Part shown: positions 6,304 through 23,199 of the stretch, piece after piece | How positions within the stretch are numbered: the first letter of the stretch is position 1 | How the letters are laid out: the number at the start of each line of letters is the position of its first letter | NCBI GenBank assembly: GCA_016928715.1 | Contig: JAFGKG010000066.1 | Coordinates: forward strand, 1-33,446 | Source: Chloroflexia bacterium | Lineage (GTDB): Bacteria > Chloroflexota > Chloroflexia > DTKN01 | Direction of reading: 5' to 3' | DNA: 33,446 nucleotides | Position numbers and translations under genes: made by a program | The notes under the pieces: generated by a model | The model's input: the letters and a program-made list of their open reading frames with translations, nothing else | What the model was told of the DNA's origin: nothing | The model's database searches: none

Positions 6304-9300
6304 GTGTCCCAACGCTTTGGACGGGTGTTGCTCTATGTGATTTTGGTGTGGGTTTGTGGCGGAGGCTGGCTCTACTTGGGCCGGCCGGTTGGGCTGCCCT
6401 CATCGAGGGCCTCTCATACCGAGGTGTCGTTCACAATCCCCTACAATATTTCCAATTCGGGCAATCCGCCGGTCGGTGAGAATGGCTCTCAGCGCGTTCG
6501 GGCGGACATTGCCGACGATGGCAACCTGCAGGCGACCTGGATGGAGGGGACGATCGATGTGGCCAACGGTCCGGCCTATACTTGGGAAGAGGGCGGCTTT
6601 TGGCAAAGCTGGGAATGGGCCGGCCCCCACGACAATTCGGGCTATACCAACCCGGTGTTGGCCTTGGACAGCTCTGGATCGTTGCACCTAGTCTGGGCCG
6701 GAGGGGGCACTTCTCCCTACGACATTCTTTATGCAGTCAAACATCCCGGAGGTGATTGGTCTCAACCGGAGAACCTCTCCCAAGATCCCCAGCACAGTTT
6801 TTACCCCAGTATTGCGGTGGATAGCCAGGACAAGGTTTGGGTTGTTTGGGAAAGTGAGGTCGCCGATCAGAATTTCGAGATTCTGATTCGCTGCAAGCCG
6901 GTTGGGGGCAGTTGGGATGGTCCGACGAATCTCTCGAATCTACCCGGCAACGATTTGGAGCCGGACATTGCCGTCGATGCTGAGGATGTTCCACATGTGG
7001 TCTGGCGCAACAATGAGGCCGCAGCGAACTGGGAGATTTATCACAGCAAGTATCTCGGCAACGCTTGGAGCGTCCCCCTCAACCTCTCGGCCAATCTTTC
7101 GGCCTCGCACTTTGCCCGTGTCACGGCCACTGCCTGGGGTGACGTTTACGTGGTTTGGGAGGACGAGCTGGACGGTATAGATCGGCTGCAGATTCTCCTC
7201 CGGCGTTGGAGTGGGGGGCAGTGGTACGCTGCGACCCGCGTTTCCGCCTCCCCGGTCAAGGCCCTGTGGCCGGCGGTGGACGCCCAGGATGGCCAAGTTG
7301 GCGTGGTCTGGACCGACTATCGCGACGACAGCACCGAGACATACTTTTCCTATTCCAGCGACGGTGGCGTGACCTGGCAGGGGGACGAGAATGTGTCGAG
7401 CAATGTCAGCGCCTCCTTCTTCCCCGAGGTGGCCGTCAAGGCCGGATATGCCCACGTTTTTTGGCAGGACGATGCGCCTGGGGAGCAATTTGATATTTAC
7501 TACAGCCAGGGAGTGCTTCCCTTGCCGCCCCACACGGCCACGCCCGCGGAGCCGCCGACTTTAACGCCGACGCCCTCTTCTAGTCCCAGTCCTACCTGTA
7601 CTGAGACCCCCTCGACCACGCCAACGCCCTCACCTCTACCCTTTTTCTCCGTTTCGGGCCGGGTTCGGGACGTATATGGCAATCCCTTGGCCGACGTGGT
7701 GATCTCGGCCGGACCTGACCATGAAGCGAGCACGGGTGACGATGGATTTTATCATCTAGTCGATCTGCCGGCCGGCGGATATCCGTTGGTGCCGTTCCGG
7801 GAATCCTATACGTTTTACCCCATTTCCCGCTCTGTCTCGCTGCCTCCGGACAGCGTTCGCCAGGACTTTGTCGCTGCGGGGCCGGCACTCGGCCGGCCCA
7901 TTGTGCAGATAGTCCGTCCCTGCCTGAGCGGGCCCTATTTTGCAGCGGATGGCGTGTTGTCCGATCGTTTCGACGCGCTGGTTGACTGGCAGGATTCTTT
8001 TCCCGGCTATGTGGAATTTGCCCTAAACGACGTGATCAGTCGGGTGGTTGCTCTTGAGCAGGGCGGGTCCCAAACGTATGATCTGGGCCACGATTTGCAG
8101 TACAGCCCCACGGGTCGATACAACGAGCTTGGCATTAGCGCGATCGATGCGCAAGGTCTGCATTCGGCCGTGTACCTACTCAACTTGATTGGATTTGAAT
8201 TGCCCCCGTGGGTACCGGCCTATACGCTTGTCAGAGGACAGGATTGCCCCCGCAGGCCAGGTCGTATCGAGTCCATGCTGGCCTTTCCGCAACCTCCATG
8301 GGAAGGAGAGACGATCCCGCCCGACGAATTTCCCTACTTTGGCCAACAGCCTTTGGGTATTACGAATACTGTGGGCCAGCTCCGCTTGGCCCTAGACCTG
8401 AAAGGCTTGGGCCAGGCCTCCTTGTCCGGAGAGACGCAGATTACGGCCTGGGGCCAGCAACTTGCCGGTGTACTTGAGGGCCAGGGCCGGCTGAGTGTTA
8501 TGGGAGGCCGAGGGTTTGAAGTGGAGCGTGGTCTGCTAGAGCTGCGTGCAACCGGCTGGTTGCGGGATGAAGCGCAGGTGTGGTCGGTACTGCCAAGCCT
8601 GGAACCATTGGAACTGCTGTACCCCGTCGGAAAATTGCTACAGTGGTTCCGTCCACGAGCCCAACTGACGGCGTGGGCCAAGGTCAGCCTGCACAGCCAG
8701 GCCCAATTTCAACGGGCTTGGTCGGGTTGGGAGTGGAATCGCCATCAGGGTGGGGCCGACTTGCACACACACCAACTGCTCGCTCTTGGCGTGGCCGGGC
8801 GGATGGATAGCCGGGTTTATGGTGGAGGCACGGCGTCCTTGCAGTTACAGGTCCCCCCCGAACCCTCGTTTCTGGCAGGCGCTCAACTGAAGCATCTATC
8901 CGGTATCCATGTGCGGCTTTGGGGGTTTGAGAACACCATTACCGACACCTTTGCCTGGTCTTGGCTCCAAGAAGGGCCGGTCCAGCAAGAACACCGCGGT
9001 GGATGCAGTGGATGGCAGGCCCTGGGTAGCGCAAGCGCCTTTTCCCCTACCTTGCCCATACTTACGGGAACCGAGATCGTCTCTCAGGTCTATTCTTATG
9101 CCGAGCCAAGCCTCGCTTTCAGCGGCAGCCAGGGCCTGCTCCTGTGGACCGATCATGTGGCCGACAAGCTGCCTTTGCAGGGGGAGGAACTCTTTTACGC
9201 CGCATACGACGGTAATGCTTGGAGTCCCCCAGCCCTGCTCACCGACGATTCTTACGAGGATTGGGCGCCGCAGGTGGTTTTGGACGATCGGGACCAGGCC

Positions 9301-12300
9301 GTGGTCGTTTGGGAACGACAGAGAGACGTTCAGCCGCCTAGTGCTACGCTTGACCTGACCTATACTCGGGGGCTAGAGATTGTTTATGCCGTGGGAAACG
9401 GTTTGACCTGGACCGCTCCATTAAGTGTAACCGACAACAGTTTTCTTGACCACCTGCCTCGGCTGGCCCAGTCCCCCGATCGCCACTCCTTGATGCTGCT
9501 CTGGCGGCAGAACCGGCAGGGCGATCTCGTCGGCAGCGCCGCAGTATCCGACACCCTCTACAGCGCTCTGTGGAACGGCGACGGTTGGACTTTGACGGTG
9601 GCCCTCCTGGTCAGCGACAGCCTGGAAATGCACCTGGCCTGCTACAGTGACACGCTGGCCATGTTCGCCTATACCCGCGATTTGGACGGCGACCTGAGTA
9701 CGGCCACTGACCAGGAGCTTTATATCCGTCATTGGGATGGCTGCATCTGGCATCACCCCATTCGGTTGACATACGACGATCAGGCCGATAGTGCCCCCCG
9801 CGTGCTCTACAGCGCGGATGGCACGAGCCACCTGGTCTGGCTGGGGGGGACGACCCTTTACTACTGGGAGAACGCTCCCAGTGGAGAGCGGCGGCCGATC
9901 CTGGAGTCAAGCTCGTCGGCGCTACTGGACTATGGCGTGGTATTGGGGCCACCGGGGCAATTGTTCTTGTTCTGGCAGGAGCCTTCGGCAGTGGGAGGGG
10001 ACCTGGAGTACACGGTCTATGATTGGGCCACGGCTCAGGCTATGCCGCCAGCCCGGTTGACCCAGGATCGACCATTGGAGCGAATGCCGGACCCGGTTTT
10101 CGAGGATGGGCTTGTCTGGCTGGCATTGCTCAAGGACGAGTTGCTCAGCGAAACCATCACCGTCTCGCCCACGCTGATCGTCAGCGACGTGACCGTTTTT
10201 GGTGGCAGCCGGCTCTGTGTGTTGAGCCACAGCCTCGGGGTGGATTTGCATGTCAGGCCGGAGGATATCGTTTTGCTCCCCGCGAACCCAGAACCTGGCC
10301 ACACAGCTACCGTCAGTGTCAGCGTGCGCAATCGGGGCGACCTGCCCCTATCTTGTGCGCATGTGCTCGCTTACCAAGGGGATCCCGAACTGGAAGGCAA
10401 TCTGCTCGTGAGCCAAAGCCTTTCCCTGGGCGCCGGCCTGAGCACGACAATTTCGTTTGATTGGTCGGTGCCCCCCACGGCCTCGCAGCAGCAGTTAGCG
10501 GTGCTACTCGATCCGGACAACTTGGTGGCCGAATGGCGCGAGGACAACAACCAGGCCTGGATTCGACCGCTGCGGCCAGATTTGGTCATGGCCGCTGTCT
10601 GGGTCTCCTACGGCTCTGGTCAAGCGGTCACCCTGAGCACCGTAATCAGCAACAGTGGCGTGATCGCGGCGGATGTCTTGACGGTCTCTTTCTACCTGGA
10701 CGATCCCATCACGGGTGTCCTGGTCGCCCAGAGCCAGATCTGCGGTCTGAAAGTTGGCCAAGCGGTAGAGACATCCTACAACTGGGACACAGCCGCCTAC
10801 TCGGAAGGTTGGTACCTGCTCTATGCGGTGGTCAATGGGCCGTCCGTTTTGCCGGAGGCGGATGGGGACAACAACATGGGTTGGACTGTGCTGGGCTTGT
10901 TGCCCGACCTGGGCGTTCATTCAGAGAGTGTTCGGGGCAAGTTGTTGGAGGAATCGCTATCGCTGGTGATTCCCGTGTACAACAGCGGGCCGCGTGACGC
11001 TTTGGGGGCTAAATTAGCGCTGTACGAGTGCTGGCCCGATCCAGGAGATCTACCGCTTGTGCAGCAGACTGTGATGGTGCCGGCCGGGGATCATGTGGAA
11101 AGCGTGTTGGAGTGGGGTGGTCCTTGGCGGCCAGGCCTCTATATAGGGATCAATGTGGATGGTGCTCTGGCAGAGCAGGATTTGAGCGATAACCTGGCCC
11201 TGTTTGGGCGGATGCCGCAGCGAGACTACCTGGCTTTGGTCCGGCGCGATCCCACCCCCACACCGACTGCTACCCCCACCGCCACACCGACACCCACCAC
11301 TTCTCCAACTCCGACTCACACACCGGAGCCTACATCCACGCCCACGGACACGCCCACGCCCACGGACACGCCCACGCCCACGGACACGCCCACACCGACA
11401 CCCACTGCGACCGCCACACCCACGCCCAGTGCAACTCCGACTGCCACGCCCACTGCTACACCTACTGCTACCCCAACCGCCACACCGTGGCCCTGGCTGC
11501 CGTATGTCAATTACTACCGGGATATGGCGGAACTGCCGACGGTGAGCGAACATAGTGACTGGAGTCTCGGTTGCTGGTACCATGCCCGCTATATGGTCAA
11601 GAACGATATGGTCGACCATTACGAGGACCCTGCCAATCCCTGGTACACAGTTGAAGGGGATGCGGCGGCACGGGCGAGCAATCTGATGGGTGGCGGGCTG
11701 AACACCTTGGACGAATATGCCATCGAACTGTGGATGCGTGCGCCCTTTCATGGGGTGGGCATCATCGATCCGGCTTTGCAGCAGGTTGGCTTTGGCAGTT
11801 ATCGTGAGGCCGATGGTGGCCTGCAGATGGGCGCGGCACTGGACGTGATTCGAGGACGGGCCGGTATCTCGCCTTCGGTAAGCTTTCCGGTGATGTGGCC
11901 CGGGGACAATACAATCGTGCCGTTGTATCTGGGCACCGCTGAATATCCCGACCCGCTCAGCAGTTGTCCCGGGTATAGCCATCCCAGCGGTCTGCCGCTT
12001 ATAGTGCAAATCGGTCCGGGGAATCTCACCCCCGATGTTACCGCTCACTCTTTCCGACAGGGAGGCACAGTCCTGGAACACTGCGTCTTTGATGAGACCA
12101 ACTATAGCAATCCCGACAGCGAGGCCCAGAGACTGGGGCGGAATATTCTCAATGCTCGGGACGCCATCGTGCTTATTCCCCGGGATCCTCTGGTGCCAGG
12201 AAGTACTTATGAGGTCTCGATTCAGGTAAATGGGCAGACCCATAGCTGGTCTTTTACAGTGTCCACCGACATCGCCGCGGGACCGAGCCACTGGGACTAC

Positions 12301-12312
12301 CAGATCCGTTGA
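6304..12312 (+). CDS. Giant secreted multidomain protein with propellers, CARDB and CAP domain
   Basis: A 2002-residue exported protein. An N-terminal signal-like helix ([19 protein letters not shown]) is followed by about six repeats of the type P-x-IAVD-x-VWVVW (residues 60-405), a beta-propeller. Then come a Pro/Thr/Ser linker (about 412-445), a carboxypeptidase-regulatory-like beta-sandwich (446-525: [19 protein letters not shown]), an unassigned region (530-925), a second propeller (about 928-1296), and three CARDB-like domains (about 1313-1640, with REDNNQAW and [10 protein letters not shown]). A second PT linker (1650-1730) leads to a CAP/SCP domain (1733-1853), whose [14 protein letters not shown] matches the CAP signature, and an Ig-like C-terminus. 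The GTG start has GGGAGG upstream. No sortase signal or anchor is seen. It stands alone as a transcription unit. A surface or extracellular adhesion, binding or scaffold role is inference. Confidence 0.92.
11341..11394 (+). repeat. 18-bp in-frame tandem repeat in the PT linker
   Basis: Three near-identical copies of cccacggacacgcccacg begin at 11341, 11359 and 11377, each encoding PTDTPT. They lie in a longer Thr-Pro linker (about 11254-11489) between the CARDB-like and CAP domains. Being a multiple of three, copy-number changes would alter linker length without breaking the frame. Confidence 0.9.
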
Positions 12313-21763: not shown

Positions 21764-21796
21764 AAAATGCCCCCCCCGTAAAGGGAGGGGCATTTT
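21764..21796 (-). terminator. Rho-independent terminator of the Flp pilin gene
   Basis: The minus strand reads AAAATGCCCCTCCC, a short TTTA loop region, then GGGGGGGGCATTTT: a 14-bp stem with one mismatch ending in a T run. It lies 32 bp past the pilin stop codon, between pilin and the GT87-like gene. Confidence 0.85.
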
Positions 21797-21827: not shown

Positions 21828-21983
21828 CTAGGTGATGCTGTTGTACACGGAGCCAAAGATTTCGGCGATCCGCGGACCGAGCAGCGCAAGAACAGCAATA
21901 ACGACAATTGCGATCAAGAAAAGGATGAGCGCGTACTCGACCAGACCCTGGCCCTTCTCACGAGCAAAGAAGCGTCGCAGCAT
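21828..21983 (-). CDS. Flp/Fap-type IVb pilin
   Basis: A 51-residue gene, easily missed by length cut-offs. The peptide starts MLRRFFAREKGQGLVEYALI, continues with a hydrophobic helix (LFLIAIVVIAVLALLG) and ends FGSVYNSIT. The G-x4-E-Y processing site of Flp prepilins is exact: Gly11, then Glu16 and Tyr17. Flp pilins form thin adhesive pili assembled by Tad machinery; no tad genes are in the window. AGGAGGT sits 7 bp before the ATG, with a near-consensus promoter and a palindrome upstream and a terminator downstream, so it is a well-expressed single-gene unit. It lies downstream of a DegS-like histidine kinase and beside GT-C-type genes. Confidence 0.93.
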   Translation of the reverse strand: MLRRFFAREKGQGLVEYALILFLIAIVVIAVLALLGPRIAEIFGSVYNSIT

Positions 21984-22035
21984 GTGATTCACCTCCTTCT
22001 TCGATTGGCCTCAGCTCTTGCAAGCTGGCACTCTT

Positions 22036-22063
22036 ATTATACCACAAATCCAATACAAGTCAA
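22036..22063 (-). promoter_or_regulatory. Strong predicted promoter of the Flp pilin gene
   Basis: On the minus strand, -35 TTGACT (22063-22058), 16-bp spacer, consensus -10 TATAAT (22041-22036), with TGG before it (extended -10). The leader is about 45 bases. Confidence 0.82.
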
Positions 22064-22080
22064 TAGTACTTTGGTACTAT
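22063..22080. promoter_or_regulatory. Palindromic operator candidate at the pilin promoter
   Basis: ATAGTAC and GTACTAT (22063-22069 and 22074-22080) form a perfect inverted repeat with a 4-bp centre that abuts the -35. Another AGTACT lies at 22089-22094 and one more at 23402-23407. This position suits an activator or repressor, possibly a response regulator paired with the adjacent kinase; that pairing is inference. Confidence 0.5.
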
Positions 22081-22098
22081 ATCCATCTAGTACTTGCC

Positions 22099-23199
22099 CT
22101 ACCCTTGTTCACCAAGTTCCTGCATGGGGATGGTGGCGATGACGCGGGTGCCGCGACCAGGGGTGCTTTCAATGATCAACTGGCCCTTGAGCAGTGTTTC
22201 CACCCGTTGGCGCATGTTGGCGATTCCCATCATGCGGCGTTGGCCCTGGCGTCGATCTTGTTCCATTTCTTCGATGTTAAAGCCGACTCCATCGTCTTCT
22301 ACAATGGCGACGATCTGATGGCCCTCCAGTTCCAGGGCCACCCGGGCGTGGGGGGCGTGGGCATGCTTGGAAACATTGGTCAGCGCTTCCTGGATCAGGC
22401 GAAAGATCGAGATTTCCAGATGTGCGGGAAGCCGTCCCTCTACGCCCTGGACGACCAGGTTGGTCTCGACACTTGTGCGCTCACTGAAATCCTGAATGTA
22501 GCGGCGGAGGGTGGGCACCAGCCCCAAATCATCCAGAATCATGGGGCGCACGTCAAAGATAAAGCGGCGCATTACCTGTAGGGTGTGATGAATTGTGGTC
22601 TTGAGGCTGGTCAACTCGGTCTTGGCTTCAACGGGGTCCTTGTCCACAAAGCGTTCACAGACCTCGGCCTGCAATACCAGGTTGGACATGGTCTGAGTCG
22701 GACCATCATGAATCTGTTGCGAGATTCGCAGGCGCTCCTCCTCTTGGGCTTGAATGATCTTGGAGATCAACTCCTGCTCAGAAGTGTCATCCTGGGACTG
22801 TAGCTGGCGTGCAGTTCGCCCCCCAGTGCCCTGTTCCTGCAAGGTCTCAAAGAGCAAAATCAGATTTTGTATTTCCTTCTGCCGGGCCTGCAGGGTCTTT
22901 TGTTTGCTCTGCTGCTGTTCCAATTGGGTGCGCATCATATAGTGGCGCAGTTGGACTTCGTGTAAGGAGGTATAAAATTGCTTGATATCCGTGCGGGGAT
23001 AGTTGTCCAGGTTCAATTCCATCTCGCGCATCCGGCTCGAGATGGACAATTCGCGCTGGGAGAGGCGATCCACCTCCACCGAGTTTTGGGGGATGACCAC
23101 ATTGAGCTCCTGCAGCTCCCGGCGCAGTTTCTCCAGCTCTCCTTGTAGGGCCTGTATTTGTTCCTCAATACGTGTGGTCAGGTCTATTCTTGCTTCCAT
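22099..23199 (-). CDS. DegS/NarL-type sensor histidine kinase, cytoplasmic
   Basis: A 366-residue kinase with no membrane helix. Residues 1-140 are a long predicted coiled coil, as in DegS. The HisKA_3 dimerisation motif is at about 150-180 (EEERLRISQQIHDGPTQTM; phospho-acceptor His164). The HATPase_c domain follows, with N box EALTNVSKHAHA, G1 box VEDDGVGF and a C-terminal GIANMRQRVETLLKG then ESTPGRGTRV. Such kinases phosphorylate LuxR-type response regulators; none is encoded in the window, so it is an orphan here. AGGAG lies 6-7 bp before the ATG. It ends 115 bp before the Flp pilin gene start, on the same strand. Which signal it senses is unknown. Confidence 0.92.
   Translation of the reverse strand: MEARIDLTTRIEEQIQALQGELEKLRRELQELNVVIPQNSVEVDRLSQRELSISSRMREMELNLDNYPRTDIKQFYTSLHEVQLRHYMMRTQLEQQQSKQKTLQARQKEIQNLILLFETLQEQGTGGRTARQLQSQDDTSEQELISKIIQAQEEERLRISQQIHDGPTQTMSNLVLQAEVCERFVDKDPVEAKTELTSLKTTIHHTLQVMRRFIFDVRPMILDDLGLVPTLRRYIQDFSERTSVETNLVVQGVEGRLPAHLEISIFRLIQEALTNVSKHAHAPHARVALELEGHQIVAIVEDDGVGFNIEEMEQDRRQGQRRMMGIANMRQRVETLLKGQLIIESTPGRGTRVIATIPMQELGEQG

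Follow-up and report, generated by a model that had tools for sequence, protein, structure and literature searches.

A 51-codon pilin gene (flp), the histidine kinase gene next to it and a recurring element in its promoter point to a dedicated, undescribed pilus control system. The reading that we favor, with a probability of roughly 0.6, is a Tad-pilus regulon switched by an activator, which is probably a response regulator, with the linked orphan kinase as its likely input. The pilin, the promoter, the conserved element, the regulon membership, the synteny and the leader hairpin described below were all read from the DNA sequence.

Sequences and Searches

The window analyzed here is the entire contig C107 (33,446 nucleotides) of draft genome G000, which comprises 3.54 Mb in 226 contigs and is about 89% complete. 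Homologues and synteny were surveyed in this genome and 60 class-level relatives (61 genomes in total). Element scans covered 158 genomes of the class (101 genomes for an earlier 14-base version), with the same pattern reversed as control. A wide scan of genome_contigs (84,980 species, 257 Gb) was run with a 17-bp-spaced variant of the element only. The match counts given below are not independent, since the sequences within family f6 are related. Table 1 lists the features. The window also encodes (6304–12312, plus strand) a secreted-looking protein of 2002 aa that contains tracts rich in Pro/Thr and whose C-terminal stretch looks similar to a CAP/SCP domain.

Table 1. Features of the flp locus (positions in the window; strand as read).
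Feature	Position	Strand	Basis
Intrinsic terminator AAAATGCCCCTCCC-TTTAC-GGGGGGGGCATTTT	~21764–21796	-	stem and T-run
flp, 51-aa Flp/Tad (type IVb) prepilin	21828–21983	-	ORF, translation, Flp_Fap match, homologues
Shine-Dalgarno AGGAGGTG	21990–21997	-	sequence
Predicted 5'-terminal mRNA hairpin CAGCT-tgcaag-AGCTG	22012–22027	-	8 nt after the -10
-10 TATAAT	22036–22041	-	TATACT/TATAAT at the same spacing in relatives
-35 TTGACT	22058–22063	-	sequence
CTATTG box overlapping the -35	22061–22066	-	conserved in relatives
Palindrome ATAGTAC-TTTG-GTACTAT	22063–22080	.	second arm specific to the window's genome
GTAC box 2, also a palindrome arm	22074–22077	-	conserved in relatives
GTAC box 1	22090–22093	-	conserved in relatives
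Orphan soluble DegS/LiaS-like histidine kinase (HisKA_3 + HATPase_c)	22099–23199	-	Pfam; directly upstream of flp

The flp Gene and Its Product

The flp gene runs on the minus strand from an ATG at 21983–21981 to a stop codon at 21830–21828, and its 51 codons translate into MLRRFFAREKGQGLVEYALILFLIAIVVIAVLALLGPRIAEIFGSVYNSIT. The protein has an exact G-x4-EY prepilin site (G11-QGLV-E16-Y17), a predicted leader (MLRRFFAREKG) followed by a mature part of 40 aa that begins with QGLVEY, and a single hydrophobic helix (top 19-residue hydropathy 3.32). Pfam Flp_Fap (PF04964) matches it over profile positions 5–45 of 46 with an E-value of 1e-5. Homologues were found in 46 of the 61 class-level genomes at an E-value threshold of 0.001, the best of them being 60–70% identical. 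Two Tad pilins in the PDB, 8u1k (PilA) and 8u2b (Flp family), match residues 15–44 weakly (E 0.06) and in register. The occurrence of flp in Chloroflexales genomes has been reported before (PMC7332563). An earlier note on this DNA had proposed a short Flp pilin gene that would fall if its peptide were not conserved; the ORF and its homologues confirm that the gene is real, and the peptide is kept in the relatives. The assignment as an Flp pilin is supported by these sequence comparisons. Alternatively, the product might be no pilin but a small membrane peptide whose likeness to Flp is accidental; this would suit the Pfam score of 25.7 bits, which stays under the curated cut-off of 32.2, and the same genome does encode a larger protein with an Flp-like tail. 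Such a coincidence is nevertheless very improbable given the exact prepilin site, the alignment with solved Tad pilins, the presence of a tad cluster and a prepilin peptidase in the genome, and an identity of up to 70% to the flp genes of Chloroflexales-type genomes, the group in which tad genes have been reported (PMC7332563).

The larger protein is encoded by a 151-aa ORF on contig C191 (L038, 2522–2974, minus strand), immediately following an ORF whose end resembles ECF sigma region 4. It has a single membrane segment and a tail (IVVLALLGPRMQEIFGTVYNSIT) that is approximately 70% identical to the window Flp. It resembles a putative anti-sigma factor with an Flp-like tail, and Pfam gave no anti-sigma match. 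At loci L052, L044, L042, L045, L048, and L053, flp is present in two to four tandem, near-identical copies, and in some cases every copy has a promoter element and a terminator to itself. Locus L188 (G015 contig C4, match 1392–1517) encodes a fusion of a pilin with a carbohydrate-binding part, in which a long Pro/Thr linker connects the Flp pilin to a cellulose-binding CBM_2 domain (49 bits). Two further long Flp proteins with linkers are encoded at L187.

The Promoter and Its Conserved Element

An AGGAGGT sequence lies just 5' of the flp ATG (21990–21997), and the promoter TTGACT-16-TATAAT (22063–22036, minus strand) is of the sigma-70 type, with 11 of 12 matching positions and an extended TG. 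It is the best of four promoter-like sites in 3 kb, where shuffles yield 1.0 sites. The ribosome site, promoter and terminator proposed earlier for flp are thus supported by the sequence.

Side-by-side reading of flp upstream regions revealed a conserved element, GTAC-N12/13-GTAC-N7-CTATTG-N19/20-TATAMT, of which the part GTAC-N12-GTAC-N7-CTATTG spans 22061–22093 in the window. The -35 begins with the TTG of CTATTG, and beyond this TTG the -35 sequences of relatives are poor (TTGAGT, TTGAAG, TTGGCA). Compared with 13 relatives of the same spacing, the window is 100% identical at the 14 box positions and 23% identical, which is the chance level, at the 19 positions between the boxes. With both spacings allowed, the full element yields 24 matches in 23 of the 158 class genomes, all before flp, and none in the reversed control. 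The 14-base version gave 14 matches in its 101 genomes, all just before flp (reversed control 3), and the seven matches of the 17-bp-spaced variant among 84,980 species all belong to Chloroflexota and all lie upstream of flp.

The element occurs mainly in family f6 plus a few other families. Its first boxes are weaker in family f8, and it is absent from the flp upstream regions of the f7 genomes, which keep the kinase-flp pair. It remains with flp in three genomes whose kinase is encoded at another place (G049, G057, G033), and its retention at flp after the kinase has moved (G049, G057) indicates that it belongs to flp and not to the kinase gene. The window's genome has a single exact full site, and the element was not found on the contigs that carry the second flp, the tad cluster and the prepilin peptidase. 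Direct reading of the region from the stop codon of the kinase gene to the -10 revealed no CtrA-type TTAA-N7-TTAA sequence. In family f3 (L054, L055, L056), the element is located about 265–300 bases before flp, which predicts a leader of more than 200 nt.

The earlier note had attributed tight control to a palindrome next to the -35. This palindrome (ATAGTACTTTGGTACTAT) is exact and occurs once in the window, 0.14 being expected with up to three mismatches. One arm (22074–22077) is the conserved GTAC box 2. The other (GTAC, 22066–22069) overlaps CTATTG, and the relatives examined read GGC, GAC or GCC there. The notion of control survives in spirit, carried by the longer element at 22061–22093, and the palindrome itself loses that role with one arm conserved. 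The second arm may strengthen binding in the window's genome, the conserved signal being the longer element.

A Group of Tad Pilin and Pseudopilin Genes

A shorter core element (GTACY-N6-CTATTG-N19/20-TAWAMT) has 47 matches in 36 of the 158 genomes, with none in the reversed control and approximately one calculated to occur by chance. The genes following these sites are flp (30), TadE-type (9), TadG-type (4) and other genes (4), so that 43 of the 47 sites precede flp, tadE or tadG. The four TadG-like genes are orthologous and come from one genus, and one of the four other genes encodes a type I restriction methylase. Pfam confirmed TadE (PF07811) and Tad (PF13400) on the three examples tested. 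For comparison, 3.6% of random positions in the sampled loci, which are flp-enriched, have a prepilin-type motif in the 900 bases that follow. Judged by these sequence contexts, the element marks the genes for Tad pilins and pseudopilins collectively, and the occurrence of the same type of site at flp and at tadE/tadG promoters of relatives defines a Tad-pilus regulon.

At one locus (L234, position 454; G011 contig C224), a core element, possibly there by chance, precedes a gene for an HTH_17 DNA-binding protein, with a von Willebrand-type protein encoded further downstream.

The Kinase Upstream of flp

The kinase matches HisKA_3 and HATPase_c with 54 and 60 bits, respectively, and the DegS sensor domain PF05384 weakly (25.8 bits; cut-off 27.6). 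Residues H164, D165, N275, D302, G304, and G306 are invariant in 27 homologues, and no transmembrane stretch was found in the protein. A close homologue (E-value of 1e-80 or better) is encoded in 27 of the 61 genomes. In 19 of these 27 it is the immediate upstream neighbor of flp and is encoded on the same strand, an adjacency that spans families f1, f3, f6, f8, and f10, and in two more it is within 6 kb of flp. One further pair may be adjacent, since in G031 the kinase is at a contig end and flp opens another contig. Three f7 genomes also carry a kinase relative (32–36%) upstream of flp. The outer neighbors of the kinase-flp pair differ between families. At the loci examined, no response-regulator gene was found beside the kinase, with one exception beside a paralogue in G025. 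The description of flp as a self-contained unit finds no support in evolutionary terms, because the kinase is repeatedly syntenic with flp and the same element precedes tadE/tadG genes in relatives.

Tad Machinery and Candidate Regulators

Contig C183 of the same genome carries tadZ-A-B-C, encoding a receiver-MinD protein of the TadZ/CpaE type, TadA (PF00437, 219 bits), and TadB and TadC (PF00482). A prepilin peptidase (Peptidase_A24) is encoded on contig C168. The earlier remark that no tad assembly genes are nearby is right within the window and does not extend to the genome, where the proposed search for tadABC and a prepilin peptidase found both. For Chloroflexales, the pilus genes reported are only of the Tad type (PMC7332563). 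The second flp of the genome (L039, contig C124, 2352–2489, minus strand) is 68% identical and precedes a nucleotidyltransferase gene. Its promoter looks like a plain TTGACA type, and no GTAC/CTATTG element was found at this gene.

The window's genome has 15 GerE matches, and two orphan regulator candidates were traced in the 60 relatives. One of them, a LuxR-type regulator on contig C153, is an orphan in this genome and a plausible partner for the kinase. Its homologues are near-universal in the class, usually with their own adjacent DegS-like kinase, and are also present in genomes without the element. A search with the usual kinase of these regulators gave only partial matches in the window's genome, the window kinase among them, and no conserved GTAC pair was found at the genes of these regulators. 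We did not retain the C153 protein as the regulator of the element and left it unassigned, in view of its near-universal occurrence and the separate DegS-like kinase that usually accompanies its relatives.

The Leader Hairpin

The predicted hairpin at the 5' end of the flp mRNA recurs in relatives. In a positional test against shuffles, 20 of 39 related leaders had a perfect hairpin (5 bp or longer) that begins 4–10 nt after the -10, compared with 1.3 in shuffles, a figure uncorrected for relatedness. The stems vary (GTGGAG, GTAGAG, GTAGG, TGTAAGC; CAGCT in the window), and the f8 leaders have no such hairpin. A hairpin that keeps its place at the 5' end and changes its sequence suggests protection of an abundant mRNA.

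Proposed Mechanism and Alternatives

In the reading that we favor, flp would be transcribed alone, from its sigma-70-type promoter to its own terminator, and the short 5' hairpin would probably protect an abundant message by stabilizing it. The product would be a major-type pilin, cleaved after Gly11 and assembled by the Tad machine encoded on C183 and C168. The GTAC-N12-GTAC-N7-CTATTG sequence would act as an activator-type site within the promoter, with CTATTG merged into the -35; the -35 of relatives, poor beyond TTG, and the boxes just upstream of it fit an activator that touches the polymerase. A response regulator is, we infer, the most likely protein to bind there, given that a kinase is repeatedly next door and that Tad pilin promoters elsewhere are so controlled. 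Its phosphate would most likely come from the DegS-like kinase upstream of flp. A more far-reaching version, which we offer tentatively and hold to have somewhat less than an even chance, is that this orphan soluble kinase was retained next to the Tad pilin gene from an early stage of the class because it senses the state of the pilus or the surface and drives an activator of a new type, not yet described, that binds GTAC-N12/13-GTAC-N7-CTATTG and thereby governs a dedicated Tad-pilus regulon of filamentous Chloroflexota.

The element could be the activator site of a Tad regulon while the kinase is unrelated to it, its synteny being inherited and its true partner another regulator, such as the LuxR-type protein on C153. 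The persistence of the element where the kinase is elsewhere, the f7 genomes that keep the pair without the element, and the lack of an adjacent regulator gene all agree with this possibility. We find it rather doubtful, since the adjacency outlasts changing outer neighbors across families, for which selection is a better explanation than drift.

Other alternatives concern the element itself. If the GTAC boxes abutting the -35 bound a repressor that blocks the polymerase, as the palindrome suggests, the overlap of the site with the -35 would make sense, and the near-consensus promoter of the window (11/12) would suit a strong promoter held in check. Such repression is unlikely in view of relatives whose -35 has little beyond TTG, as expected of an activated promoter, of the position of the GTAC boxes upstream of the -35 and not over the -10 or the start, and of a palindrome that is not conserved. 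It is less likely still that the element is recognized by an alternative sigma factor or represents nothing more than a variant promoter. The fixed distance of the boxes from a -10-like TATAMT would be accounted for, but the -10 and its spacing from TTG (approximately 20 bases from TTG to TATAMT) are ordinary for sigma-70, and a sigma site would not be expected to show additional conservation 11–27 bp upstream of CTATTG that tolerates two spacings. The promoter element that marks the pilin and pseudopilin genes, together with the neighboring kinase gene, narrows the search to a few leads, with the element as possible bait for the regulator and the kinase as a candidate sensor. It also illustrates how comparison can uncover a regulon from a gene of 156 bp in a fragmentary metagenome bin.

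Comparison with Known Systems

Chloroflexales are filamentous and gliding, with Tad pili as their proposed, unproven motor (PMC7332563); in the open-access literature we found nothing on the control of their pilus genes. The closest parallels come from other bacteria. The Tad pilin gene pilA of Caulobacter crescentus has CtrA sites at its -35 and farther upstream (PMC11264516). The window shares with it a site that overlaps the -35 at a Tad pilin gene, with additional boxes upstream, the binding of a regulator being presumed here from sequence. CtrA recognizes TTAA-N7-TTAA, with three irregularly spaced upstream sites, whereas the window has GTAC-N12/13-GTAC-N7-CTATTG at fixed spacing, and unlike in the CtrA-pilA system the kinase is DegS-like, and its gene adjoins that of the pilin. 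In Pseudomonas aeruginosa, the two-component system PprAB controls the flp and rcp-tad promoters (PMC6821963). Two-component genes linked to flp/tad control are common to both cases, the link in the window coming from gene context. The putative PprB site is given as GGCTAATAC (PMC6821963), in place of which the window has GTAC boxes and CTATTG; unlike in PprAB, no regulator gene accompanies the Chloroflexota kinase, which is soluble and DegS-like.

With kinases of the DegS/LiaS/NarX type (HisKA_3), the window kinase shares the H-, N- and G-boxes, a coiled N-terminus and, as in DegS, the absence of a transmembrane segment; it differs from them in having no cognate regulator next door and in its linkage to a pilin gene. 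With the Flp/Fap pilins of PF04964 and the Tad pili of Chloroflexales (PMC7332563), the window Flp has in common a short prepilin, the G-x4-EY site and one hydrophobic helix, although, unlike family members above the Pfam cut-off, it scores below it. The kind of system, Flp pilins and the Tad genes of Chloroflexales are known already; the element and the kinase-flp link appear to be new.
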